Origin: Kappaphycus alvarezii
Lineage: Eukaryota > Rhodophyta > Florideophyceae > Gigartinales > Solieriaceae
Direction of reading: 5' to 3'
Assembly: GCA_002205965.3 (NCBI GenBank)
Contig: NADL03000464.1
Location: 2,108,001-2,172,000, forward strand
DNA: 64,000 bases
Shown: positions 3,241 through 60,948 of the stretch, in pieces
Position numbering within the stretch: the stretch's first letter is position 1
Layout of the letters: every line of letters begins with the position of its first letter
Notes under the pieces: generated by a model
Databases searched by the model: none
What the model was told of the DNA's origin: nothing
The model's input: only the letters and a program-made list of their open reading frames with translations
Position numbers and translations under genes: made by a program

Positions 3241-4660
3241 TCTTAGTGGTGAGATAATTACATCACCTCTCTTTTGGGTACCTTTGAGTAATGATTTGAA
3301 TCACTCTCAAGTGAACTCACTGATAATCAGCTCACGCACTCTCCCGGGGAAATAAAGTATAATAACCGAACTATGAGTCACCAGTCACTGGAAGGTATGA
3401 ATTCCCTTGAGCATTAGAGATGACAGTGACCGATAAAAATATTCATGTCAAGAAAGCGGATAAACTACCTGTGGAGGGGGCTTTCCAGGATTCGGGTTCA
3501 AATTAATCTCGATCAGGACTCCCTAGTAGGAAATTAATTTCAAATTACTGTAAAATGCTTCCAAAATCAGTTACTCTTCAATGCAAAAGGTTATGTTATC
3601 CACAAAAGGTTATGTTATCCTCACGACAGTAGCATATAGCGTGTGGCTAGAATTACTTCTATGCTTATCCAAAAACTCTTTATGGTTTCTCTTTGAAGTA
3701 ATTAAATGCCGAACAGAAAAGATTTTGAAATATTAGAGTGTATGTTATGGTTGGAAGCCAATAACTCCAGTGAGGCACAATTTAGTTCAAAAAAACTCTC
3801 TACTAGCAATTAAAAATAAATTTTATGGCCGAAATAGCAGAGAATTCCTCAGGGAGACGTCTAGGGGGATTTGGGGTGCTTCACAAGTTAGAGATGTATA
3901 ACAGCTATTTCCAGATTTGTATGGGTCTATACGAAGCTTCGTGTCAGAACAGATAAGTTTAATCGTAATATTGTAAGAATTGGACTAAAGTATAAAGGTA
4001 TATATATCATCGATTCAGAATCCCAACTACGACCTATCAATTTCATTAATCGAAAAGGTAATAATTGCAATTTTTAAACATGAAAAGAAATTCAAGCAAA
4101 TAATACCAACTTTTGCAAAAAATCCTTTAAAGAAGCCGAAAAGCGCCTTATAAGGAATGGAACTGAATTTTTACGGTGCCACAGAACCAATTATTTTGGC
4201 GATTTATCGAAGGTTTTGAATTACCTAAAGGAATTTTTAATTTTTTTCCTGCATGTTGCCGAGAAATTAGAGATACAAAAAAGGTGCTCAATTTTTGCTG
4301 ATTAAGAAAAGTCTGCAAGAAATAAAGTACGGAAAAAACTTTCTCATCTATTCAACATGTGCCTCCAAATATTTCTTAATTGAATTTTTTATCTGCAGTT
4401 ATATCCTCGATAAAATATTCGTATAGGATATAATTTCTCTAGGATTCATGGGATAACTAGTTTAATTTTATATTTTCCGCAACATAAATTTACATACCGG
4501 TAGCATCCATAGAAAACATGAACGAACTGCAGCTCCCGTGATTAAGGGACTTCAGCCCTATTTATTCAAGACTCAAATAAAAGATAGACTCTATTATGTC
4601 TAGTGAATATATTTAATAGTAAAAACATACTTTGACCATATTTCGGGACTTTTTTGATGT
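3241..4660. other. AT-rich region without a recognisable gene
   Basis: No frame exceeds 60 codons. The only structure noticed is a short tandem duplication at about 3583-3620, where an 18-19 base unit containing AAAAGGTTATGTTATCC occurs twice in a row. Confidence 0.5.
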
Positions 4661-5492
4661 AGCACTTGGTGTAGTAGAATGGAATGGAAGGTCCACGCAC
4701 CAGGTGGGGGAATTAGAAGCGAGGCTTCTTCGGGAGACCAGTCTAGCTGGGCTAGACAGCTACGAAAGTAGCAGGGTAGAGCGACCGTAGGTCGCGCTCG
4801 AAAAGGACTAGGAGGACGCCCTCAGATCCTCCAGGTTGGCCTGGAGTGGGGATTTGAGAAGGAAAAAAGGGGAGAAGAGGAGAAAGGAGGTGGGAGATAG
4901 TTAGTTAGGGTAGGCGATCCTACTCCAGGAAACGCCCGAAAGGGTTAGTAAAATGTGACTACTCCGGTCACTGTGTCTACTACGGACACGAGTAGCGCCG
5001 CCTACTTCGGGCGCACACTAGTTGGTCTAGCTGCAGTGATCCCGTGCAGCGCTAGGCTTGCCGGTCATTCAACTAGGCAAAACCTAGACAAACTACACCG
5101 GACTACTCCGGTCTTGGTGGTGCTGGTCAGGGAATTTCGGGGATGGAAGTTGGTCCATTGGTTTTTTGTCGTTTTCTGGTAGGGATCCTAAGGCCGACGG
5201 CCCTAAGTAGTAACGGTGCCACCTACTGTGGCACTGTCAGCTAATTAGTTCAACAATAATTACTAAAATAAAGGGATAATTAAGGGAATAAATGTAATTG
5301 CTTTGGCCCCACACGTGGCCCTAAAACGTGGCAATCACACGTGGCACGAAACGTGTGCCCGGGACAGGGCAGCCTGTCCGTACTGTAGTGAGAAAAGTAT
5401 GCGCGCGCGAAAATAAAAGGCTAGGTTCCCACACTTGGAAATGTCAGTCAAACAATAAGCGTGGGTTTTGCTGTCATTTCTTTTACACATAT
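4661..5492 (+). repeat. GC-rich hairpin-chain repeat, candidate solo LTR or structured noncoding element
   Basis: This block is sharply more GC-rich than the AT-rich flanks and has no convincing ORF. It holds at least ten short perfect hairpins in a row: GTCTAGC/GCTAGAC (4741-4757), GCTAC/GTAGC with a GAAA loop (4759-4772), GCGACC/GGTCGC (4781-4795), CTCCAGG/CCTGGAG (4829-4846), GTGTC/GACAC (4973-4989), CTAGG/CCTAG (5073-5087), ACCGG/CCGGT (5097-5112), GTGCCAC/GTGGCAC (5216-5234), CACACGT/ACGTGTG (5336-5357) and GGACAGG/CCTGTCC (5362-5379). A TG start near 4661 and a CA end near 5492 would suit an LTR, but no target duplication was identified. Part of it recurs at 9772-9840. Orientation is arbitrary. 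Confidence 0.5.
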
Positions 5493-17835: not shown

Positions 17836-18374
17836 ATCAATGATACTGCGGGAGTATATTATGTTTCCGAATGTACTCTTGGAAAGCTTCCGTTACTACA
17901 GCAGATCCATCCTTCGTAACATCAACGGAGTCCTATGTTGGTTGCCACTCCGCCTCATAACGTGGCACACTACGCATCAGAACCAAGAACTTGAAACGGG
18001 CGTCCAACCTTTTTGTGATCCAAGATAACCTCCACTTTCTGTTCTGGTCCATCAGGCAGCTCAAGCGGTGCAGGTGCAGGAGGAATAGGTAAAGAAATGT
18101 CATTGGGCTGCTCCAAATGTGGTGTGGTGTGAATGATATGAATGACTGGATGGATTTTAAAATGAGCAGGGATATCCAGTCGAACAGTATTCTTACCAAT
18201 TAGCTCCTTAACCACGAATGGCCCATATCTACGTGCACCAAGCTTTTTAGATTCCTGGGACCTAGAATAAACATCTGCAAACAACGAGCGATTGATCCAA
18301 AGCTTTGAACCGACTTTGTAATCTGGAACCTTGTATCGCCTTGAAGCATATGCAGCTTGCCGAGCTTTTGCCAC
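17836..18374 (-). pseudogene. Chromovirus integrase C-terminus and chromodomain (frameshifted)
   Basis: The frame from 18374 continues the integrase after a frameshift. It reads RRYKVPDYKVGSKLW and then RRYGPFVVKELIG, the GPY/F module of chromoviral integrases, followed by a proline-rich linker and KVEVILDHKKVGRPFQVL, the first strand of a chromodomain. A second frameshift near 18000 moves the rest into another frame: PRYEAEWQPT, with the E-A-E-W aromatic motif, followed by an FQEYI helix ending near 17840. Chromodomains steer integration to histone-modified chromatin. Two frameshifts make the product non-functional. Confidence 0.82.
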
Positions 18375-20956
18375 TTGTAGGCAAATTGCGCATCCTCAAG
18401 AGAAACCTTGGGCTTGGCACGAAAGTCTTCCGAGCTTTGAAAGGGTATGCTGCTGCTAGTCAAGAAGTCCAATGGCGATTTAGGTGTCCATCCCAAGTCC
18501 AGCTCAAATGGTGACATACCCAGATCATCGCTCACAGCCGAGTTGTATGCAAATTCTGCAGAAGGAAGCAGTTCATCCCAGTCATCCTGATGACACGAGC
18601 AATAGCAACCGAGATAGTTCTCGATCATCCTATTCATAATCTCAGAAGCGCCATCTGTTTGTGGGTGTCTACTTGTAGACATTCTTAATTTCACCCCACA
18701 AAGATTCATTAGTGTCTTCCAAAACTTTGAAATGAACTTGCTGTCCCTATCTGAGGTCACATCATCAGGCAATATGTGGTTCTTGAATATGTTCGCGAAG
18801 AAGTCTCGAGCCGTGTCCTCAGCAGTATCTGATGTTTTAGATTTAAGAAAATGGACTCGACGAGTAAGTCGATCAACCCAAGTCGTGATCGCATCATGAC
18901 CGCTCCTCGTCAGGGGTAACCTCACAATGAAATCCGTAGCTAATGAACCCCATCTGTGGTCAGGCAATTCCAGTGAAATTAGATCAGTCAACTTTTTTTG
19001 ATCAGAGTCCTTATACTGCTGACACGTGAGACATCCTTCACAATACTTTCGAACATCCCGGCTATTATGTTTACAATGGAAGTTATCTAATCTGGACAGT
19101 GTCTTTGCAAATTTAAAATGTCCACCAACTTTAGAGTCGTGAGCAATTTGCAAAATATCCGAAATTGACCTTCTTGGTATGCACAACTTTCCATTGTAAA
19201 ACAGTCTCGAACCATCTTTTTGGAACATTGGCAGAATTCTTTCAAGTTTCTGCTTCTGAACCATATCCTCTGGCCACTCTCCTTCCATGGCTTTTACCCC
19301 TGGACCAAAGAACTGGTCGTCATCATACCGAGGAATGATCTGATCAACGTCAAGGTAGGGAATTTCAACGTCATTCACTGAGATGTCACGGTCTCCTCCA
19401 GTCACGTGCGGAACTCTGGATAATGCGTCTCCCAAGATGTAAATTCTTCCAGGCTTCAGTGTGATGGGAAAGATTCCGAAGTTACCGAGAGTTTCCAACC
19501 AAAGTGCTTCTTTCCGACTCAGTTTCGGTTTTGTGAAGAAGCTCTTAAGCACTTGGTTGTCTGTGAAAATATCAAATTCAGAACCTTCAAGATAACACCT
19601 GAATCTTCCCAGAAAATTAATCAAAGCCAGAAGCTCTCTGTCATTTGCAGTGTAGTCCGACTCAGCTGGTGAAAGTTTCTTTGAATAGAAAGAAATTACA
19701 CGATCTCTTCCATTCTCATCCAACTGTGTTAGAGTTCCACCGACAGCAAGCTGTGAAGCATCTACATGACCACGAAATGGCTTGTTCCAATTAGGAGCGA
19801 CTAAAATTGGAGCCAACGTCATCGCTTCCTTTAGCTTCTGAAAAGCTTTATCACACTGCTGGTCCCATTTCCCAATACCTCGACTCTTCTTTGTCAGATC
19901 TGTGAGAGGTGCCGCAATTGCCGAGAACTTCTGAATGAACCTACGGAAAAACTGTATTAGACCTAAGAAACTTCTCAACTCCGTTAGTGATTCAGGTTTC
20001 GGCCAAGTTTGTAGGACTTCGACCTTCTCAGGATTGACACGAACGCCATGCTTCCCGACTATTAAACCCAAAAACTCTAGCTCAGTTTGAAAGAAAGAGC
20101 ATTTCTTCGGAGAGATGTACAGCTTGTGGTCCTTAAGTCTCTTTAATACAATTTCCAGATGTTCGTAATGTTCGTCCTCATTCTTACTGAATATAAGAAG
20201 ATCATCCATATAGACAACCAAGAAGACATCGATGCGATCATAGAAGATCTGGTTCATCAAAGTTTGGAACGTAGCAGGAGCGTTGCAAAGTCCCATTGGC
20301 ATAACAAGATATTCAAATTGCCCATACTTTGTATTGAACGCAGTCTTTTCGATGTACTCCGGTTTCACCCTTATCTGATGGAATCCGGTTTTCAGATCAA
20401 GCTTCGAGAAAAATTTCGCATCTCCAAGTCGATCGAACATTTCATCAGAACGAGGGAGTGGAGCATTATTCTCTTTGGTGGTGCGATTCAAAGCGCGATA
20501 ATCGACAACACCTCTAAATTTTCTATCCTTTTCTTTCGCAAAGAAAAGTGGTGCTCCATATGGTGATTTACTGGACCTGATCTTACCTTTCCTCAGAAGA
20601 GGGCTCGACGTACTCTTTTGCTGCCCTAAGTTCGGATGGAGACAACTGGAATAAAGGTCGATGAGGTGCCTTCGCTCTTTCCTCCACTTTGATCTCATGA
20701 TCAACTGATCGAATCGGAGGAAGCCCTCTTGGCAATTCATCCTGAAAGACCATTTGAAATTATCCAGTAATCTGCTCAGTCTTCCATCAAACTTTGAATC
20801 TGTCACTCCTGTCATACTGTGAACTTCAAGTAACTGAAATACTTCGAAGTCACCCCCATGCCTCAGCATTCGTCTAAATTTCTTCAATCCCAAATTGGAC
20901 ACATCAATACGGTTTTCTTCATCGGAATCAATCACTGGAATAGAAGCATCTTTCAA
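18200..20956 (-). pseudogene. Chromovirus pol: RT, RNase H and integrase core
   Basis: A 918-codon frame. RT spans about residues 120-300, with RGVVDYRALN, KLDLKTGFHQI, MPMGLCNAPATFQ and the catalytic YMDD at 249-252. RNase H follows with VDASQLAVGG, the Glu in DRELLAL, and TDNQVLKSF. Integrase has an HHCC zinc site ending CEGCLTCQ and the DDE triad in TDFIVRLP, SDRDSKF and HPQTDGASEIMNR. About residues 68-120 are out of frame: a one-base loss near 20752 and a one-base gain near 20595 cancel, so that segment (normally the linker before RT, with ELPxGLPP) is read wrongly. The frame then shifts at about 18374. The long ORF is therefore misleading; the protein is damaged. Confidence 0.93.
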
Positions 20957-21124
20957 ACATCACAATTCGTTTCCGATAGTCGACACGTGGATTGTGGGCA
21001 AGATGCCACGGCATTCCCAACAGAACATCATACCTGGTTTGGGACACAGCCTTACTAGAAGTATATGTATGTTCGCCTATCTTAATGGTTCCGTTGGAAA
21101 TGATCTAGATACTTCCTCAGTGAC
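20957..21124 (-). pseudogene. Protease-RT linker, broken
   Basis: The region between the protease frame and the RT frame holds at least three in-frame stops in any continuous reading (after CHSQE, after FPTEPLR and before CLKDASIP). The protein between stops still reads as polyprotein (GMMFCWECRGILP, STIGNEL). Confidence 0.6.
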
Positions 21125-21481
21125 TCACTCCTGTGAATGGCAAACAATGACTCCTTCACGCCGAATCTCAAAAAAGATCCTATTTCGCTTCAGGAACTGG
21201 GCTGAAACCACGTTTGTATTGCATCCATCGTCCTTTAGTACTTTGACTGCTATTCCATTCAGTCTACCTTCAAGTACTAACAAAGGCTCCACTGGTATAG
21301 GTCCATCAGTGGGGATGCTGTCATCATGACTAGACGTGATTCCATTAGACTCGGCTTCGGACATTCTCGACTTTTCCCTGTCCTCTGAGAATTTAGCTCC
21401 GGTGATGTCCACAACAGTTTCACTCTGCTCATTGGGACATCTTTTCACACTCACTACTGGTCTCACCTGAGTGTTCACCAA
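21125..21481 (-). pseudogene. Chromovirus aspartic protease region
   Basis: A 118-codon frame with PVEPLLVLEGRLNGIAVKVL followed by DDGCNTNVVS. This corresponds to the retropepsin active site (normally D-S/T-G-A/C-x-x-x-F/V-V). The catalytic triplet reads D-D-G here, an unusual middle residue that may be a mutation. A stop lies upstream (TAG near 21496) and another downstream (TGA at 21125). Confidence 0.72.
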
Positions 21482-21529
21482 GTCTGGTGGACCAACTAGT
21501 TTCCCGAGTCAAAGCTATTCAAATCATTA

Positions 21530-22290
21530 CTGTGTTCTGCCTGCGTATTGTTCGCCGCTATGCGAGTACCACCCCGGTTACCTTTATTCCCATTTCCTTT
21601 TCTGTGTCTCCAAGGTCTACATCTCACCTTATGGCACGTAAAGCATCAGTTCTCCATCAAGTCTTTCTGACGCTGCCCATCGTTTTTACGTTCAAGGTTT
21701 CCGATCTCCATCGGCATAGGACCTGAGGCATTTCGATTGGCGTGAAATGAACCTCTGCCCGTGAAGAAACCTGCGCCATAAAATGCTCCGTCAATGTTGA
21801 GAGCAATGGTAGTCGCAGCTTCAAACTTGGATGGGTTTCCTTTACGAACCTCCAACAGAATGTGGGGTTTGAGACCTTCACAGAACCGCGCCAATTTTTC
21901 CGACTCACTGATACCGGGAATATTGATAATCAAATTCCTGAACTCTGACAGGTACGCAGCCGCACTCGTTTTCTGGCGGATCTTGGTAAGTTTGTCGCGA
22001 GCTTGAATGACACTGTCCTGGGGGACAAACTCTGCCTCAACCAGGAGTTTGAAAGCTTCCCATGTAGGAGGAACAGCATTCTCGGACACAACTGTATACC
22101 ACCAGTTTGCGGCAGTTCCGGCCATGAATGTCGAAGCAAAGTCGATAGCATTCTGGGCACTGATGACTTCTTCATGGCCCACCATAATAAGTCTCAGGTA
22201 TTTTTCGACTGAATGCGACCATGACCGAACTGTTAACGCATCTCGAGTCCCATCGAACAACACAGGCTTATTTGGTTTGAAGAAAGACAT
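21530..22290 (-). pseudogene. Chromovirus gag with zinc-knuckle-like tail after a stop
   Basis: The frame from 22308 (more likely start ATG at 22290, reading MSFFKPNKPVLFDGTRD) is a retrotransposon gag: SWSHSVEKYL, FMAGTAANWWY, TWEAFKLLVEAEF, KIRQKTSAAAYLSEFRNL, and RFCEGLKPHILLEV, the order of the Retrotrans_gag fold. A TGA at 21646-21648 ends it. The frame resumes with CFTCHKVRCRPWRH, spaced like a nucleocapsid knuckle but with the third and fourth ligands as Cys and His instead of His and Cys. Suppression of this stop would be needed for a Gag-Pol product unless the copy is simply dead. Confidence 0.85.
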
Positions 22291-22308
22291 GTTCAACAAA
22301 CCTCTCAC

Positions 22309-26618: not shown

Positions 26619-28439
26619 TTGATCTCAAAGTGTCCGTTCTTCACGCCTTCCCCCAGCCGCCGTTACCTCTCCAATCTGCTACAATCGCCCGTCATCCCCG
26701 CCGTCATGTCTTTCCTCCGTGGCCGTCGCCTCCCCCTGTTCGCAGGCACATTGTTGGTCACCACTGCCGCCTCTGTTTCACTCGAACGTCATCCTGGTCT
26801 TCTCGATCACACTCCCTTGGAATCCCCAGCCTCAAGCATCATAGCTATCGTTCGTTTTGCCCGTGCGCTTGGTACCGCCTCTGCTGTCATGGCTGATTAT
26901 CGAATGTTGTTTGCGCGACATTCCGATTACACCTCCGACCATTACCGAGAAGAACGCTCCATCGTCCATCGCCGTTCCGCAAACAGATTGCTGGCATTGG
27001 CACGCCGTCAGGGGGCAGTATACGTGAAAATAGGCCAGCACATTGCCTCGATGAATCATGCAGTACCGCCAGAGTATTCACAGCGCCTGAGGTTATTGGA
27101 GGATCGTGCAGCGTATCGTCCGTATGGACAGATTCGCCGTGCTTTGGCTATGGAGCTGGGAAGGGGAGTCACAGATGTGTTTGAGGAGTTTGATCCAATC
27201 CCGGTAGCTGCAGCGAGTTTGGCACAAGTGCATCGTGCAAAGTTGCGCAGTGGAGACGAGGTGGCAGTCAAGGTGCAGTATCCGGGATTGGAGTCATTGG
27301 TGCAGGGCGACTTAAAGAGTATACAGATGCTGAGCTGGATGCTGTCGTGGGTTTTTCCTTACTTCAACATGGGATGGGTTGTGGGACAATTTCGAAAGAA
27401 CTTGGAGAAGGAGATTGATTTTGAGCTAGAAGCGGAAAGCGCGGAAAGGACTGGGGATTTCTTTGAGGGCGATGGAAAGGTTTGGGTTCCTGCTGTGTTC
27501 AGGGAATTGAGTACAAAGAGGTTATTGGTCATGGAGTATGTGGATGGTTTTCGAGTCGATGACGTGGAAGCGATGGCGCAAGGAGGAATTGATCCTCACC
27601 AAGTCGCGGAAACAGTAGTGAACGCCTTCGCACAAATGATATTTGTGAATGGCTTCGTGCATTGTGACCCACATGCTGGTAACTTGATGGTGAGAAGGAA
27701 GGAGGGTGGACAATTTGATTTGTTCTTGCTAGATCATGGGCTGTATAGACAGCTGGATGATAGCTTCAGACAGAGCTATTGTAAGTTATGGAGGGGCTTG
27801 GTCTTGAGGAGAGATGGCGACGTTGAGGTAGCTTGCAAGGAATTGGGGGCTCCAGGATTTGCCAATGTTTTCTCCGTGTTTTTGCTCAATCGGTCATGGA
27901 GGTTTGCAAAGAAACTGGGGACCGATATTAGGGTGAAAATGAGCAAGGAAGAGCTAAAGCAACTGCGGAATGATCTGAAAGAGGGAGGGTTGCGTTCACA
28001 GGCTGATGTGTCAGCATTTGTGGAGCGTATTCCCGATGATTTGCTGCTAGTCTTCAAGATGAATTCTCTAGTTAGGAATGTGAACAAGGCCCTTGGAGCA
28101 AGTGTCAATCGGTTCAAGGTTAACGCGCGTTATGCGGTCAAAGGCCTGAGGCACTTCAACGGCAATTGGGGGGCAAGGAACGGCGGCTCTGGCAGTGGAG
28201 CCGGAGGCGCCGTTGTTGTCGCTGGAACTCATTCAGAGCTTACGCGTGCTTATGATCGATTCCTGGCCATGGGGAACTGGGTTCGCATGGTAATAGACTG
28301 TGCTTATGTTGAGCTGCACCTGTTCTGTTTGGATGTGGCCCTGCTTGCGGTGAAGTGGTGGTTAGGCGGTAATTTTATGTTGGACCCTGGAGCGGACAAA
28401 AGCCCAACAAACTCGGAGGCGATGAGTTTCATCGGGTAA
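26619..28439 (+). CDS. ABC1/ADCK1-like atypical kinase (UbiB family), probably mitochondrial
   Basis: An intronless 606-codon gene and the only intact host gene seen. The N-terminus has many Arg/Ser and no acidic residues (SPSRRYLSNLLQ), followed from Met30 (ATG 26706) by RGRRLPLF and a hydrophobic segment LFAGTLLVTTAASVSL, as expected for mitochondrial import and an inner-membrane anchor. Family motifs follow: VYVKIGQ (the KxGQ motif, about residue 137), VAAASLAQVH (the Ala-rich loop replacing the P-loop), VAVKVQYPG with the ATP-site Lys, ELSTKRLLVMEYVDG, MIFVNGFVHCDPHAGN (catalytic loop) and LLDHGLY (metal-binding, DFG equivalent). The HGLY form and the overall order are closest to ADCK1 / yeast Mcp2 (Cqd-type) proteins, involved in mitochondrial lipid and coenzyme Q homeostasis. 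A Gly/Ser-rich insertion (about 516-527) precedes a C-terminal helix. ATG 26706 is a plausible alternative start. Confidence 0.93.
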   Translation: MISKCPFFTPSPSRRYLSNLLQSPVIPAVMSFLRGRRLPLFAGTLLVTTAASVSLERHPGLLDHTPLESPASSIIAIVRFARALGTASAVMADYRMLFARHSDYTSDHYREERSIVHRRSANRLLALARRQGAVYVKIGQHIASMNHAVPPEYSQRLRLLEDRAAYRPYGQIRRALAMELGRGVTDVFEEFDPIPVAAASLAQVHRAKLRSGDEVAVKVQYPGLESLVQGDLKSIQMLSWMLSWVFPYFNMGWVVGQFRKNLEKEIDFELEAESAERTGDFFEGDGKVWVPAVFRELSTKRLLVMEYVDGFRVDDVEAMAQGGIDPHQVAETVVNAFAQMIFVNGFVHCDPHAGNLMVRRKEGGQFDLFLLDHGLYRQLDDSFRQSYCKLWRGLVLRRDGDVEVACKELGAPGFANVFSVFLLNRSWRFAKKLGTDIRVKMSKEELKQLRNDLKEGGLRSQADVSAFVERIPDDLLLVFKMNSLVRNVNKALGASVNRFKVNARYAVKGLRHFNGNWGARNGGSGSGAGGAVVVAGTHSELTRAYDRFLAMGNWVRMVIDCAYVELHLFCLDVALLAVKWWLGGNFMLDPGADKSPTNSEAMSFIG

Positions 28440-30240: not shown

Positions 30241-30426
30241 CAGTGCGGTGCAAAAGTATAGACTCAAATGAATTGAGAAAAGTATTAAAATAAGCCAGAT
30301 ATATTGTGTACCATAAAAAACGTCTTTAAAAGCTGAGTAGAACAGCAGCATTTTTTTAAGAGAAAACAAAAGACAGTACGTGTGGGAATAAAAAACGTGA
30401 TTTTACCGGTGCAAAAGTATATACTC
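30241..30426 (+). repeat. Left terminal inverted repeat of the Tc1 element
   Basis: Aligns base by base with the reverse complement of 31581-31764, with roughly a dozen differences by eye. Outer and inner direct repeats share GGTGCAAAAGTATA. Confidence 0.92.
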
Positions 30427-30542
30427 AAGAATTGTTTGAGGTTGTCAAGTGGCGGGAAATGCAAACAGAACGAACAAATGCATACCAAACGACTCTCCTC
30501 ACCTTTCCCAAAGCATCCGTTTCATTTCAATGCATTGCAATC

Positions 30543-31510
30543 ATGCCACGGCAAAAGCCACTCACTGCAGAAGAGCAAGCATCAATTTTAGCCTTGCGCA
30601 ATGCCAAACTCACCACAAGGCAGATCTCCGATCAGTTGAAGCGCTCTCAAACCGTCGTTGCACGCTTTCTCAAAAATCCAAAGTCTTATGGATCCAAAAA
30701 AAGAAGTGGTCGCCCATCCAAGATATCACCCGCCGCGAGGAAGCAAATCATTCGAGAAGCAAAACGATATAGACACAGTGCCAATCGCATCAGACAAGAC
30801 TTGCAGCTTCACGTTTCGAAGCATACCGTGTTAAGAGTACTGCAAAGTAGCCCTGAGCTGGCTTACAAAAAAAATGAGGACTACTTTCTATCTTACAGAA
30901 CATCACAAAAAGTAGAGGTTGAACTGGTGCATGGTGAAAGGGGAGCATGATCATTCTTTTTGGAAGCAAGTCATTTTTTTCCGACGAGAAGAAGTTCAAA
31001 CTGGATGGTCCTGATGGTTGCGCATACTACTGGCATTAACTAGGCGCTGAAGAACGTATTTAAAGTAGCCGTCAGGAAGGTGGTGGTGGTCTCATGGTTT
31101 GGGGGTGTTTTTCTTACTACGGAACTTGTGATCTTGTCTTCGTTGATGGTCGAATGAACTCTACAAGGTATCAAGAGGTTCTCAAGAATTATTTGTTGCC
31201 ATGGGCTGCCATGACACATGGCGAATCTTGGGCATTTCAACAAGACAACTGTCCAATTCATATTTGTAACTCTACCAAGGCCTGGTTTAATGAAAACTCT
31301 GTCAATGTTATGGAATGGCCATCAAGGGCTCCTGACTTGAACCCGATCGAGAACATATGGGGGATCCTCGCTCGCAGGGTTTACCAGGATGGAAAGAAGT
31401 TTTCATCCTTGGTAGATTTGAAAGAGACGATTCTCAAGGAATAGTCCCAAATTTCTGAAGAGCTCCTGCATAATCTCGTGAAATCAATGAAATGTCGTAA
31501 TTTATCTGTT
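30543..31510 (+). pseudogene. Tc1-family transposase (DD34E), broken
   Basis: Starts MPRQKPLTAEEQASILAL. The N-terminal paired-like DNA-binding region has two helix-turn-helix modules (LTTRQISDQLKRSQTVVARF, and RHSANRIRQDL then VSKHTVLRVL) linked by GSKKRSGRPSKIS, the GRPR-like hook. After a frameshift near 30870-30900 the catalytic domain has FSDEKKFKLDGPDG (first Asp), VWGCFSYYG, FQQDNCPIH (second Asp) and, 34 residues later, the Glu of DLNPIENIWG. In-frame stops occur near 31037, 31062 and 31442. About 310 residues would be normal length, so the gene is complete in extent but inactive. Confidence 0.93.
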
Positions 31511-53907: not shown

Positions 53908-54210
53908 TATTGTGTTACGTGCCTCTATCAGCTGCAGTTGGAAGACTGTACAATCAGCCTTATCAGTCGACAGCAAGTAAAGGAACTGGAGGAGTAAAAG
54001 GGAGGGTAAGTTGGAAAATTTTATTGGCAAGAAGGGCTGATGCTGTGGTGTGAGGGGAGCTACAGATTCTGCGGAATCAAACGTAGCAATACCTCTTCAT
54101 GATCGGACGGCGAGGAGGGGCTGAGCTCGTAGATATTTAACATGCAAAAGTGTGAAACACTGCGTCTGAGATGTAGTGTGCTCTTGAGCATTACAGTGTA
54201 AAGATTGACA
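53908..54210 (-). repeat. 3' LTR of copia-3
   Basis: Aligns with 58896-59204 over its length. Shared blocks include TGTACAATCAGC, AAAGGAACTG, GAGCTACAGATTCTGC, TTCATGATCGG, GAGGAGGGGCTGAGCTCGTA and AGTGTGCTCTTG. Confidence 0.82.
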
Positions 54211-54224
54211 CTCCCCCCAATCCC
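54211..54224 (-). other. Polypurine tract of copia-3
   Basis: The minus strand reads GGGATTGGGGGGAG, immediately before the LTR start TGTCAATC. Confidence 0.75.
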
Positions 54225-54373
54225 AAACACACCGTTTGCATGGCACTATACAATATGGCAAACAGTAGTTGTGCATGGCACTCCTCCCCCCTTCTCCCCA
54301 CGATCGACGGCTAATCTTCAGGGGGATGCCTGCTTGATCGTGCTGGCCATTCTCCGTACAGCGCTTATTTTCT

Positions 54374-55536
54374 ATGTCCACTTTTTTGATCATGGTGCGC
54401 GCCATGAATACGAGAGCTGCGCACCAAGAAAAAGAAGACGCTGCACGGCGCGTGGGTCCAGACCCCTATATCATTCGTCCACGCAAACAGTCCCGACTCT
54501 CTCTGATAACTGATAGAACTCTGCATTCTCAAGTTTCTCCTCCCACTGTTGGAACTCCAGTGAAGCCAATCGAGGACTGCAATGATTTTTTGCCCTTAAA
54601 TGGGCCAGAATGTGAGCCTGAACCAATAGATGAGACCGTTTTTGCAATTGACCGCACACAGTACGAGATTGGTGGGGTAGTTCTGGGCAATGGCATACCA
54701 GTAGGTATACAGAAACTTAAGAGGGGAACATGGTAGGGATGCCAGACTTCTGTGGGCGATATCAGCTACTTTGAAATTTCACGTCAGTCGTTTACTGCTC
54801 CAGACTGTGGAGCGCGGCCTTTTTTCTTTCGAATAGAGGCACTGTATACGTCCATAGAAGAAGCACCACAGCAATACTCTCTGATAAATCGCCGCACTTT
54901 ACTGCGAGGTGCCATGCAGCATGGAATGAAACACTTTATCCTGGAAAATATCCTGAAATTCAAGCAGAACTCGGGGGTTGCGGTCATTACATGGGGAGGT
55001 GCAGGAAGTCGTACTCCAAATCCAGGGCTTTCGCAGTACAGTATGGTGTGCCAAGCTGCAGTGATATCATCCATGAACAAGGGAACTTGGACTGTGTGCC
55101 GTCCTCAATTGTGAACGCCGTGCAAGATTTTCGAGGGGAATCGAGAGTCAAAATTTCAAAACAAAAACTCCTCAAATCAATGAAAAACCCATCGAATCTT
55201 GGACAAGTAGGGGGAATGTTGCAAAGTCTTGGACTGAAATTTACGTTACGAGAAATAGGGTGTCGAAAGGAACTGCACGCAAGTAGAAGTTGTCGCGCGT
55301 TTGACATAGTTGCTTGACGGAAAAAGGGAGTGCGGCTTGTAAGACTTGTGTGAACTTCTGGGCGGCGAGTGGACCATTATATCCTTTTCAATGCCAACAA
55401 AGGCATTATTTTTGATCCGGCGGAATTTTTTGCTAGTCTTTTGTGCGCGGAGAGTTTGCGCTTATTTTTTGGGTCAAATATCTCTAACCTTGAACTCTCG
55501 GAGTTTAGGGCAATGGTAGAGCAAAATAAAATGTGA
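54374..55536 (+). pseudogene. Antisense ORF of copia-3, cysteine-peptidase-like
   Basis: Encoded opposite to pol and ending 50 bases from the RNase H end (tail-to-tail). The frame from 54374 (MNTRAAHQEKEDAARRV, basic RPRKQSR) crosses a TAG at 54734 and shifts near 55005 into a frame reading YGVPSCSDIIHEQ, NLDCVPSSIVNAVQDF, KLLKSMKNPSNLGQVGGMLQ and SLGLKFTLREIG. It continues through stops at about 55315 and 55351 with SGRRVDHYILFNANKGIIFD, EFFASLLC and LSEFRAMVEQNKM, ending TGA 55534-55536. A Cys at a helix start, a His before a strand and an Asp after it (FDP) are arranged as in C39-like and other papain-fold peptidases. About 385 residues if whole. It is related to 37814-38380. Family assignment is inference. 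Confidence 0.62.
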
Positions 55537-55565
55537 AAAAATGGCACCGATCAAGTAACCTATTC

Positions 55566-58500
55566 CGACCGCACTATCCACTGGTCAGGTACAACCTTCA
55601 GTTCCCCGGTGAGGGTGACTTCTCTGAATATGGCTTTGCTCTTCTTCTCTCAATATGGCTTTGCTCATCACCTTAGCCAATCTATCAGTGATGTTTTCAT
55701 GACTTCGGACGAAACCAATATCCAAAATCACTCTGTCCCTAGCTACTTTTCTCGCGGCCACGATGTCTAGCATTGAACGCTTTTCTGTGGTACGCAAACC
55801 CTTCGATATTACATCGAATAAACCCTTCGATATTACATCGAATAAACTCTCGCTGTCTGTGAACAATTGTAATGGGTATGTTTCTCCCTAAAACTGTTGC
55901 GAATTTCTTCGAAAGCATCACGGCCACATTGAACATATCACTAAACGCGATGACTTCGCCGGGCACCTCTGACCTCGTTATGCGCCTTGACTAGTAATAA
56001 TTGAAAGCGACGGGCTCCATCCTTTAATTCTCATCTGTGAGTAATATAATGTAGCCTCATTGTGATGACAAGTCCGTATTATTTGCATAAGAGGAATCAG
56101 AAAAACCGACTATCTTCATGGAGTCCTTGTACAACTTTCGGCTTTATACTTTATCTCTCCATCGTTGGTCGACTTTATTGCCAACAAAAAGCGTCCGGGA
56201 AGCACAGTACCATCTTGGGGGGTTTACTTTTTCAGAATCACCTTAAAATTCCAATGTTCGATGAGTCCACTGATTTCCTTTCGCTTGGCTTCTTTCATCT
56301 CTGGGCTATGTACCCGCTCGTCAAACTCTTCGATAATCTCAGTTTCCATTATTTCCAGTTCGCACGGCGATCTGAATTACGCTAAACCATTGAAAAGATC
56401 AACCATAAACCCATGTAGCAAATTCTCGGCGGTGTGATACGGCGTAATTTGAGCAACATTAAAGGGGAGGGCCGGACTATTCGGTGGATTGCGAAAGAAT
56501 ACCAATTTTTGTTCATAGTTAACTCTCTCAATCTCGAACGGGCTCAGCCATTCACCAATACGGTTATTGATCTGCTTCTCGCGCTACAAAAGTACTTTGT
56601 CCCCTGGTTGATAACTTATTTCGCAAAATGCCGGCACTTTATGAAGTAGAGCGCGTCGTAACTTCAAGCCATCAATCTGACTCTCCATCTCTTTGCGAGC
56701 TATCTGAGCAGTTTTTGCTCGTTTTGCGGGGGAAAGATGGCTCGAGCGCGATTATAGAGGAATTCGCAAAACACTAGGGCGGATGTGACAAGTCCTTCTG
56801 GTCCCAGGCTGTCGTTCATTGCCTCTAAGCGCACGCAAGAGCTAACTTCTTATAAATATCTGGCTTTGAAGCTCTGATTTTGCGGAACGTCGTTCGCAGC
56901 GGCTCATGTTATCTTTCGCCTAAAACTAGACTTGAGTGAGCTTCTACTCCAGTCTGGCCAACGGCGACATTCGATACTCGTGCAATTTGAAGGAACGTCT
57001 TTCCAAATTGCGAACCTTGATCAGTAATGATCTTATTGGGAAGTCCCGTATGTACAGATGCCCAACACTCAATTATAGTTGTCCAACTATCTTCAGCTGT
57101 CACGCTCGGCAGAAATCTTGCCGCACTGAACCTTGTTCCCTCATCTACGATGTGAATAATCGGTTCATTATCAATATAAATTATGTCCATGATGATACAC
57201 TCATTAAACTTGACGTTCTCAGCTCCCAGGGTAACTTGTAATCTTATCGGAGTGTGCTGAATCTTCTGGAAAGGATCACAGTGCTTTAATAACTCCTGTA
57301 GCGTCTCTGTCTCAGGAGCTGCCTCGTCTGGACGCGATCTCTTGATAAAATTATAGAGCTTTTTCGCCGTGGAATGGACTGCCGGTGTAGTTTCGAAAGC
57401 TGTGATTGAGTAAAGTACATTTCATTAGAGAATCGAATGGGAATATAAAGATGAGGGCTCTGGGACCGAATCATTGGAATTGACCACTCATCAAAGTAGA
57501 CGGTGTTCCCGTTATCAGTGACATGCGGGATCCTTTCCACGAGCCTGTTCGAAACGGTACACGGGGTGAAAGACTCTCTGTCCATAGCGTCCAATCCAAG
57601 CAAGGTCGGAATATCTGCTTCGACAATGTCTAGAGTTACCGTGAATCTTGGTATGCCAGCGGAAGCATCAATATGGAGAATTATTTGGCCCAATGACTTG
57701 TACGGAGAGTCAGAAAAGCGGAACCGGTTTCGAAAAGGCAGAATACACTTCCGGTGGGTTCCAAGAACACTGCCAATCCTGTTATGTTCTTAGCCACCAA
57801 CTACAGAAGATGGTGCTCCGGTGTCGCCAGCATGTGCACGAAATAGTCAGCCTTCTGGGATGTGGGGAGTATCTTTCTGACGAGCACGGACGCCGTACAT
57901 CTGAAGGGTTTCATTGATGTCCTGCGAAATTTCTCCATTGAAATTGTTATCTTTGAACATCTGTCGCACATAATTTACCTTTCGGGAGTCATCTGGCCCA
58001 TAAGGATGACGGTCATTAACATCCGTTGGATTCTGACTAGGATACTAGTCCCTTACTTTGGCGTTTTAATCAAGGTTATCATTTTTCATCTGCTCCCCAG
58101 AGGTTCCCGCCACGTATGAAGTCGCTCCACCAGTGGGAGGAACGCAAAAGGGCGACAAGGTAGATCGTAAATTCCTGTGGATCCTTGAGCAGGAGCTTGA
58201 ACAGCTTCAGCTGGATGGTGAATGACACGGTCACTGCCGTTATTTTGTACCCTTTCTGGGCCGGCTTGGAAACTATTACTGGAACCATGCTGTTCCATAA
58301 ACTTAGCAACCACATCCTGTGTGAACTCATGGGTGCAATTAACGAGATTTCAAAGCCAAATATTGGTGCGAACAGACTTGTCGTTCTTGTCGGAATCCGA
58401 AATCCTAACATCGTCGATAAATTCAACGTAAATCTCCTCGAATCCATAGATTTCGACAACCTTAAACAAGACCTTGATTTTAAAAAGCGGCAATGCAAAA

Positions 58501-58895: not shown

Positions 58896-59204
58896 TGTCG
58901 TGTTACCTCTATCAGTGGCAGTTCTAAGTCTGTACAATCAGCTTTATCAGTCAACAGTAAGTTAAAGGAACTGCAGGGGAAGATGGGAGGGTAGGTGAGA
59001 AAATCTTATTGGTAAGAAATGCTGACTCTGTGGCGTAAGCGGAGCTACAGATTCTGCAGAATCAGACGTATCATTACTTTTTCATGATCGGTCGACTCTG
59101 ACAGCGAGGAGGGGCTGAGCTCGTAGATATTTACCATTCAAACGTGTGAAACACGGCGTCCAAGATTTAGTGTGCTCTTGGGCATTGCAGTGTAAAGACT
59201 GACA
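58896..59204 (-). repeat. 5' LTR of copia-3
   Basis: On the + strand it starts TGTCGTGTTACCTC and ends AAAGACTGACA. Pair of 53908-54210. The flanking minus-strand sequence inward (ATCCGGATTCG) is the primer-site position, but it does not match a primer site I recognise. Confidence 0.8.
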
Positions 59205-59621: not shown

Positions 59622-60948
59622 TCACACATCTCCACTTGACTGGCGCCCAATGCGCAAACTTGATGAGCTACGGAACTGAACGTCCATTCTTTCTCTCTTC
59701 TCGCGGCAATAACTTTCCTGTAGCTTTCCTATTTTCTCGGCTGTCGAAACCCCAATATTTAAAAGGCGGTTGTGTATGCGGCAAAAAACATCAAAATCTT
59801 CAATTCTCAAAGGATGCATGCGAAAGTGCAGGTTTGTCAAAACGACGCAAACCTTGAAATAACTGTCGTAACTAGATTCCCCACACCTCCACTTCGATTG
59901 CATTGCAGTCCACAGTCCGAACAATCGTCCGAAATAGTTCTAGACCGAGAGCCGATCTGAATAGATGCGGTCGTTGGGATATTGCTCGGACATTGTTAAA
60001 AATCCATTGTGCCGCTTTTTTCCGGCAGCACTTTTCGCACATATTCTGCAATCCCCTGATACCCCTTATCCGCCAAAACCGCCCATGGACAAGGATGCTC
60101 TTCCGAAAACTCCCAACTGTCTTCCCTAACTTGCTCTTGTCCCTTCTTTTCCAAATTTTCGGCGTGAAAATGGAGGGTGTTTTGAAGTATAGTTACATCG
60201 GTTGTAGACCCTGGATGGTGCTTCGAGCAACCAAGTGCAAGCCCATTCGGCAATACTTGCACCTCTGTCTTGTATCCATACAGTTTATGCTTTCCGCAAA
60301 AATACACTTTTCCCTCCTGCATAGAACCGCTCAGCCTACATGCCTGTTGAAACGTCACATCGGTTGCATATCTCGCGTAGCTGTAATTTTTTAAAAGCGT
60401 CTTTTCGTTCCGCAATTTTTCCATAGAGTACTGCGCACCAACAGCAACAAGTGCTGACTCAAGCATGAAGTCGCTTGCTATGCGAACGAACGTATTGGCC
60501 ATTCCCTCGAATGATGGCCCTTTCCGTCCAAAAACACGAGCCAGAAAATCCCATTGGACTCAATTCTTTTCAACAGTCATCATCATGAAGAATACATCCT
60601 TGCCACCCTCATTACTTTTCCTTCTTCTCCCAGTGTTGTAGTGCGTTGAGACATAGTCTGAAAAAAAGGCCCATATGCATTCAAATTCGGTGGTGTTAAA
60701 ATTAGTCATCTTTAGCACTGCCTCGCTTTCCCCCACTTCAAAGAAGCGATCCAAATGGGGCATTATTTTTCTACTTCTTCGTCAGAGTCCTGCCGTCCGC
60801 CACACCTATAGGAGTTGAAGCCCGCCTCCCGCTCTACAGCTGCTTCGGCAAGGAGCCGGATCCCGTTGGTGGCTTCGTTAATTGACAATAGGGAAGGGGA
60901 ATGGGGCGGGGATGCAGTTTTGGTTGTCTGGTTGGATAGGTGTTGCAT
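59622..60948 (-). pseudogene. PIF/Harbinger transposase pseudogene 2
   Basis: The most complete Harbinger copy. In minus order: MQHLSNQTTKTASPP start (60948), LLAEAAVEREAGFNSYR and GGRQDSDEEVEK, a stop, HLDRFFEVGESEAVLKMTNF, FECIWAFFSDYV, TGRRRKSNEGGKDVFFMM, a TGA near 60557, QWDFLARVFGRKGPSFEGM, then the DDE_4 domain: ARYATDVTFQQACR (first Asp), VYFCGKHKLYGYKTEVQVLP, WAVLADKGYQGIAEYV (second Asp) and, after a frame change, DRIYSDRLSV then NYFGRLFGLWTAM (third acidic position eroded; normally VENFFGRL), LTNLHFRMHPLR, and a basic tail to 59622. Only a few lesions separate it from an open gene of about 430 codons. Confidence 0.88.

Follow-up and report, generated by a model that had tools for sequence, protein, structure and literature searches.

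A conserved antisense gene with a predicted papain-like fold in a Ty1/copia lineage of the red alga Kappaphycus alvarezii

A 64,000-nucleotide stretch of the Kappaphycus alvarezii genome (contig NADL03000464.1, positions 2,108,001 to 2,172,000; hereafter the window) contains a Ty1/copia retrotransposon in which a coding sequence antisense to pol occupies the stretch between the end of pol and the 3' long terminal repeat (LTR). Our analysis suggests that this antisense reading is probably what remains of an accessory gene conserved in the copia lineage, encoding a papain-like cysteine peptidase more likely to be directed at the host than at Gag-Pol. The antisense open reading frame (ORF) is almost certainly a real, selected gene. 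Its C-terminal domain very probably adopts a papain-like fold, as judged from predicted structures; that the product is an active peptidase is favoured with less assurance.

The antisense gene and its relatives

The window reading runs on the plus strand from an ATG at 54392 (MVRAMNTRA...) to 55536, with the stop before 55537. A preliminary description of the stretch had placed an antisense ORF here, between the end of a minus-strand pol and the 3' LTR of an LTR-bounded element, and both the LTR pair and an integrase-core match on the minus strand (PF00665, E 3.3e-6, 27.7 bits, under the Pfam cut-off of 32.6) agree with that layout. The motifs it had singled out, NLDCVPSSIVNAV, NLGQVGGMLQSLGLKF and VDHYILFNANKGIIFD, are present in the window reading and conserved across the family. 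What it described is a real coding remnant, but the start is the ATG at 54392, a position common to several other copies in an alignment of 11 leaders, and the copy is a pseudogene, interrupted by stop codons (TAG 54734-54736, TGA 55315-55317 and TGA 55351-55353) and by a frameshift near 55035-55050 that was located by comparison with relatives.

Searches of the alga's own genome, covering an assembly of 336,021,096 bases in 884 contigs, revealed a large family. A 180-residue piece of the window reading found at least 93 matches, the intact relative L014 at least 113 (110 of 957 first-look candidates scored), and a divergent relative at least 128; many family members keep open frames of 300-450 codons. 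Twenty loci were fetched out of the 93 matches, favouring long open frames, giving 21 loci with the window. The antisense ORF stands tail-to-tail with the end of pol, on the opposite strand, in 20 of the 21, as expected from the preliminary description, which had looked to intact same-place antisense ORFs in other copia copies and to relatives in the same genome; some of the ORFs found are intact. The gap between the match ends of the two genes ranges from -12 to 38 nucleotides (nt), with a 12-nt overlap in one locus, and the ORF lies between the end of pol and the 3' LTR, the LTR edges being defined for seven copies.

The reciprocal search, with the tail of pol as query, scored 127 loci of 5702 candidates. 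At least 75 of these 127 pol tails have an opposite-strand antisense match just past their end (63 in the first lists and 12 more), compared with none on the same strand among the matches listed. The 21st fetched locus, L018, has only a pol remnant at that spot, namely the last 11 residues. A threshold of E 1e-4 detects no pol there, though the locus carries an intact 371-codon antisense frame (4023-5135, minus strand). We considered L018 as a free-standing domesticated copy and rejected this idea, as the frame is adjoined by those last 11 residues of pol (E 0.008) and flanked on its other side by LTR-like sequence.

Codon positions were compared in 19 loci (two near-identical ones dropped), giving 171 pairs. 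The third position of the antisense frame is the most variable in 169 of these pairs, and the summed differences at positions 1, 2 and 3 are 16870, 13299 and 26656; between L014 and L018, for example, 63, 51 and 168 differences occur over 293 codons. This third-position excess therefore points to purifying selection on the antisense protein, and the variation follows the antisense frame and not the pol strand, the distinction on which the preliminary description had staked its reading. Its expectation of a ratio below one for nonsynonymous (dN) to synonymous (dS) change is likewise borne out: where pairs are unsaturated or close to saturation, dN is much smaller than dS, as between L009 and L011, with a dN of 0.22 against a dS of 1.75. 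Distances of the antisense protein correlate with those of reverse transcriptase (RT) across 18 loci (r 0.53), with 3 of 5000 permutations as high.

The lineage is Ty1/copia by the RVT_2 domain (PF07727, for which L011 scores 82.2 bits and L014 60.5 bits against a cut-off of 31.6) and by the integrase-before-RT order in relatives. Specifically, the L014 pol frame has an rve match at 138-205 (E 0.0069, below cut-off) ahead of RVT_2 at 456-601; the window copy is too degraded. L014 also carries an unbroken 330-codon antisense ORF from its ATG, and its LTR copies are 99.4% identical; the values for L011, L024 and L009 are 99.3%, 97.1% and 96.5%. An internal search of the 21 loci located LTR pairs in the window, L023, L027 and L028. 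In 19 near/far comparisons, pairs were clear in L009, L010, L011, L014, L020, L024, L025 and L026, with several overlapping matches in L021 and a partial one in L022, and none was found in L012, L013 or L015-L019. Young copies start with TGTCG and end with GACA. Their 5-bp target duplications, read by eye, are exact in four of six copies, one base off in L020 and unreadable in L025.

Relatives of pol include one from another red alga, Agarophyton chilense. A further pol relative, P0088 (39% identity), is filed under a Chlamydiota bin and is probably eukaryotic contamination. Near the L024 and L027 copies, additional copia pol matches of the reverse orientation (L024 2-1363, plus; L027 7898-9289, minus) apparently belong to different elements. 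By eye, the stretch adjoining the 5' LTR in L031, L034 and L044 reads CGAATCCGGAT (plus strand), which resembles a transfer RNA T-arm, not a transfer RNA 3' end, and suggests an unusual primer-binding site.

Predicted fold and candidate catalytic residues

Template-free AlphaFold2 models were made for two family proteins that are about 33-37% identical. Both models are papain-like, with a Cys that opens a helix, a His that opens a strand and an Asp that closes the next strand, numbered C187/H281/D294 in L014 and C175/H259/D272 in P0132. The papain-fold arrangement that the preliminary description had read from the letters is thus recovered in two divergent predicted structures, with the residues in the proposed places. 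Structure searches rank AvrPphB (C58), the C39 domains of PCAT1 and ComA, staphopains (C47) and Josephins highest. The Foldseek results refer to the second model and the VIA comparison to both; the VIA rows YopQ, CdiA-CT, P210 CD lyase and CtaG are not classed as peptidases.

The candidate catalytic residues are widely kept. Across two overlapping family alignments, Cys is retained in 31/34 and 31/35 rows, His in 20/20 and 23/24, and Asp in 18/18 and 21/21; among 19 loci, 17 keep the Cys and 16 the His, and the divergent protein P0132 retains all of Cys, His and Asp. Ahead of the papain-like domain, the protein has a long N-terminal region with conserved W, C, D and Y columns, which some copies make basic (RPRKKSRF).

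Relatives in other sequence collections are few. Two protein-collection searches gave 2 and 5 relatives. Of these, P0130 appears by eye to be a copy of L020, and P0131 of L009 or L024, and only P0132 is clearly divergent, with a best own-genome identity of 37%. Searches with one peptide pattern each returned 35 matches in IMG/VR and 30 in prokaryote genomes, none of them confirmed. Seven family members were compared with Pfam: six had no match up to E 10, and the seventh had one unrelated sub-threshold match and no C39 profile. The antisense protein matches no family profile of OTU, Ulp1 or Josephin, and a profile search of the PDB yielded just one entry, a proteasome subunit (E 0.95), which we take for chance.

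The window element, its leader and its surroundings

The features of the window element are collected in Table 1. The element is old, since its LTR copies are only 82.6% identical over 299 columns, and its pol is shorter than that of intact relatives.

Table 1. Features of the copia element in the window (window coordinates)
Feature	Position	Strand	Basis
3' LTR of copia element	53908..54210	-	direct repeat with 58896-59204; edges by eye, including from young copies
Leader of antisense gene, 181 nt, LTR edge to ATG	54211..54391	+	alignment of 11 copies' leaders
Conserved hairpin-forming block in leader	54293..54346	+	10-sequence alignment A6
Antisense gene, piece 1 (N-terminal region; ended by TAG at 54734)	54392..54733	+	matches to relatives
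Antisense gene, piece 2 (frame as piece 1, until frameshift)	54737..55045	+	matches to relatives
Antisense gene, piece 3 (shifted frame; contains Cys motif NLDCVPSS); approximate start	55046..55314	+	matches to relatives
Antisense gene, last piece (frame as piece 3; VDHYILF...IIFD with His and Asp)	55354..55536	+	
Degraded copia pol (RNase H end, integrase, protease region)	55554..57837	-	tblastn span with relatives' pol; PF00665
5' LTR of copia element	58896..59204	-	direct repeat

The leader begins with a pyrimidine tract, which reads as a polypurine tract on the pol strand, and the distance from LTR edge to ATG is 167-181 nt in six copies and 259 nt in L014. Within the leader lies a block that recurs in L009 (3952-4005), in L011 (3778-3831) and in eight copies besides those two and the window. 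In the alignment A6, with 10 rows after the L014 leader was removed from the 11, 133 of 140 cells are paired (95%), three pairs are changed on both sides, and 0 of 500 shuffles reach the covariation score. The structure derived on the antisense strand pairs 133 of 140 cells there, compared with 101 on the pol strand. Column shuffles rarely fold as well as either strand (1/300 and 0/300 as good), and single-sequence z-scores of the hairpin are weak. Because folding is significant on both strands, we do not use the hairpin as evidence for an antisense RNA, nor accept it as proof of an antisense transcript. Most copies, among them the window copy (54225-54245) and, at the inner LTR edge, L009, L011, L020, L024 and L025, have a box resembling CTTTGCATG that sits 20-30 nt inward of the 3' LTR edge; it may be a promoter or integration element.

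The window contains further elements and a host gene. A Gypsy-like element at 18200-22308 (minus strand) shows, by eye, a gag frame and a pol frame that stays open for 919 codons. The host gene at 26619-28439 (plus strand) is a single 606-codon frame encoding a kinase domain of the atypical ABC1 type (PF03109, E 2.9e-78). Transposase fragments were recognized by eye only, Tc1-like at 30360-30950 (plus) and DDE-type (Harbinger-like) at 59996-60559 (minus).

Proposed function, rival explanations and known systems

In the mechanism that we propose, an antisense transcript would start in or beside the 3' LTR, an inferred promoter position like those described in a review for human T-lymphotropic virus (HTLV) and, upstream of gene23, for Grande (PMC7264820). 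The transcript would pass through a short structured leader, and its translation would yield a protein of about 330-430 residues, modelled poorly in its N-terminal part and predicted to have at its C-terminus a papain-like domain with the Cys-His-Asp triad. Such an enzyme may help the element to persist by cleaving or deconjugating a host protein, with silencing factors and ubiquitin-like marks as examples of what it could act on. Copia elements process Gag-Pol with an aspartic protease of their own, and because this protease already serves Gag-Pol, a host target is the likelier one. We infer antisense expression, peptidase activity and a host target. Host direction of the peptidase is a tentative proposal, and more tentative still is the complete scheme, in which a red algal Ty1/copia lineage would have retained, despite deep divergence, an antisense clan CA peptidase of a new family. 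In that scheme the gene would be expressed under a structured leader from a promoter within or adjoining the 3' LTR, and the enzyme would protect the element by cutting or deconjugating proteins of the host.

Several observations weigh against this reading. The antisense protein has no Pfam family and no sequence relative in the PDB by searches of the two; a captured known gene was rejected as its origin on the same grounds. At E <= 0.001, Foldseek with the second model gave just a single match from the PDB, and it gave none from the viral library. The first model has a mean predicted local distance difference test score of 58.7, and its initial 160 residues are mostly below 50. In conservation, the candidate Cys comes only 28th among 256 positions in one alignment and 34th among 275 in the other, and Cys or His is lost in broken copies. 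In papain-like peptidases, the oxyanion-hole residue is usually a Gln shortly before the Cys; no Gln or Asn is conserved at -7 to -1 of the Cys in the family alignments, where Gln occurs at -7 in 10/32 rows and at -5 in 5/33. Among the matches listed, 52 of the 127 pol tails lack an antisense match, and the gene may be absent or divergent there. In only 8 of 18 loci do the antisense protein and RT point to the same nearest neighbour. With pairs selected conservatively, the dN/dS medians of the antisense frame are 0.34 (10 of 210 pairs usable) and 0.36 (9 of 210), with a range to 1.2, and the window and its nearest fetched relative, L023, give 0.57-0.69, as expected for dead copies. Few pairs are usable because most are saturated in dS. 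The corresponding medians for RT-RNase H are 0.24 (9 of 170 usable) and 0.44 (7 of 186), and as the usable-pair medians are similar, the antisense gene and RT-RNase H appear to be under comparable constraint.

The principal rival is a papain-like fold without enzyme activity, serving as a binding or regulatory module such as an adaptor for a host protein or nucleic acid, comparable to regulatory roles that have been proposed for antisense ORFs of plants. This would suit the missing oxyanion-hole Gln, a Cys less conserved than its neighbours and the long, conserved, sometimes basic N-terminal region, and the antisense domains reported in plant elements are DNA-binding or unknown in the parts of those reports available. 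The joint retention of Cys, His and Asp across members that are about 33-37% identical, at the triad places of both models, argues against it, and we regard an inert module as unlikely. Somewhat less probable again is an enzyme that acts on the element's own products, in a second Gag processing step or on itself. The co-variation with RT across loci and the tie of the gene to this lineage would fit such a role, and the aspartic protease region (DTGAPSS) is kept alongside, so that a second protease would be an addition; however, the element already has, by motif, a protease for Gag-Pol.

It is improbable that the antisense RNA itself is the functional product, with the frame being secondary, as it would be if double-stranded RNA regulated the element. 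The conserved leader hairpin would be in keeping with such a role, and a review considers regulatory antisense RNAs in other elements (PMC7264820), but the codon-position pattern and the kept frames indicate selection on a protein. The notion that the open antisense reading is an artefact of pol-strand codon use or composition can be discounted almost completely, given the third-position variation in the antisense frame, the hundreds of related copies, the coherent fold, and an overlap with pol of at most 12 nt of match ends, in one locus. The pattern in 169 of 171 pairs likewise rules out a chance open frame or a shadow of pol. A conserved antisense gene whose product is predicted to be a papain-like peptidase remains our preferred reading.

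Antisense ORFs between pol and the 3' LTR form a described class, aORF-3R, which in the sections of the literature available to us includes Grande gene23, RIRE2, Retand ORF4 (TRP28), PvRetro13 and Boty brtn (PMC7264820, PMC11963269, PMC8365987). These share with the present gene the same place and the same opposite orientation, and their function is unknown; they are present across the copies of a family, and the present gene adjoins at least 75 of the 127 scored pol tails. Their products are, in the same sections, DNA-binding, SMC-like or unknown, and not a peptidase as predicted here. The review states that clear similarities to database proteins had yet to be described and then names SMC and transposase-28 domains (PMC7264820); in Retand, the TRP28 domain is reported from 97% of clusters and thought to bind DNA (available part of PMC11963269). 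Retand and Boty are gypsy elements according to the portions available (PMC11963269, PMC8365987), whereas the present element is copia (RVT_2) and algal. Red algal members are also described among GalEa-like copia elements, and the available main text of that paper leaves antisense ORFs unmentioned, with "antisense" occurring 0 times (PMC3587641).

The clan CA peptidases that the models resemble (AvrPphB of C58, PCAT1 and ComA of C39, staphopain of C47, and Josephin) differ from the antisense protein, which has no sequence match to them, lacks a conserved Gln before the Cys and is encoded in a eukaryotic retrotransposon. Peptidase C39 is fused to or adjoins an ABC transporter, whereas the antisense gene stands alone beside copia pol. 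The main text of a survey of papain-like families contains no word beginning with "transpos" or "retro" (PMC10318531). A parallel is offered by Ginger1 transposons, mobile elements that likewise carry a cysteine peptidase domain, OTU or Ulp1, outside the core enzyme set, for which ubiquitin-like pathways in transposition have been suggested; in the part of the source available, these are DNA transposons with a sense-strand domain of a named family at the transposase C-terminus (PMC2836005). Sola1-1 of Ectocarpus is an algal mobile element with an accessory gene opposite the transposase strand, but it is a DNA transposon and its product is a ParB-like DNA-binding protein with a methyltransferase, as far as the available part of the report describes (PMC12477816).

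We found no report of an antisense-coded peptidase in an LTR element in the literature searched, most subscription journals lying outside its scope. As far as these searches reach, the antisense ORF class is known and a peptidase-type product is new to it. The models would add to the papain-like superfamily a divergent group missed by sequence profiles. A conserved antisense protein with a predicted enzyme fold and triad, present in hundreds of copies and with intact members, makes the function of antisense accessory genes assayable. If the protein is host-directed, this would suggest that envelope-less retrotransposons, like retroviruses, carry catalytic anti-host accessory proteins, and an antisense peptidase that cuts host proteins would be an enzymatic counterpart of retroviral antisense accessory proteins.
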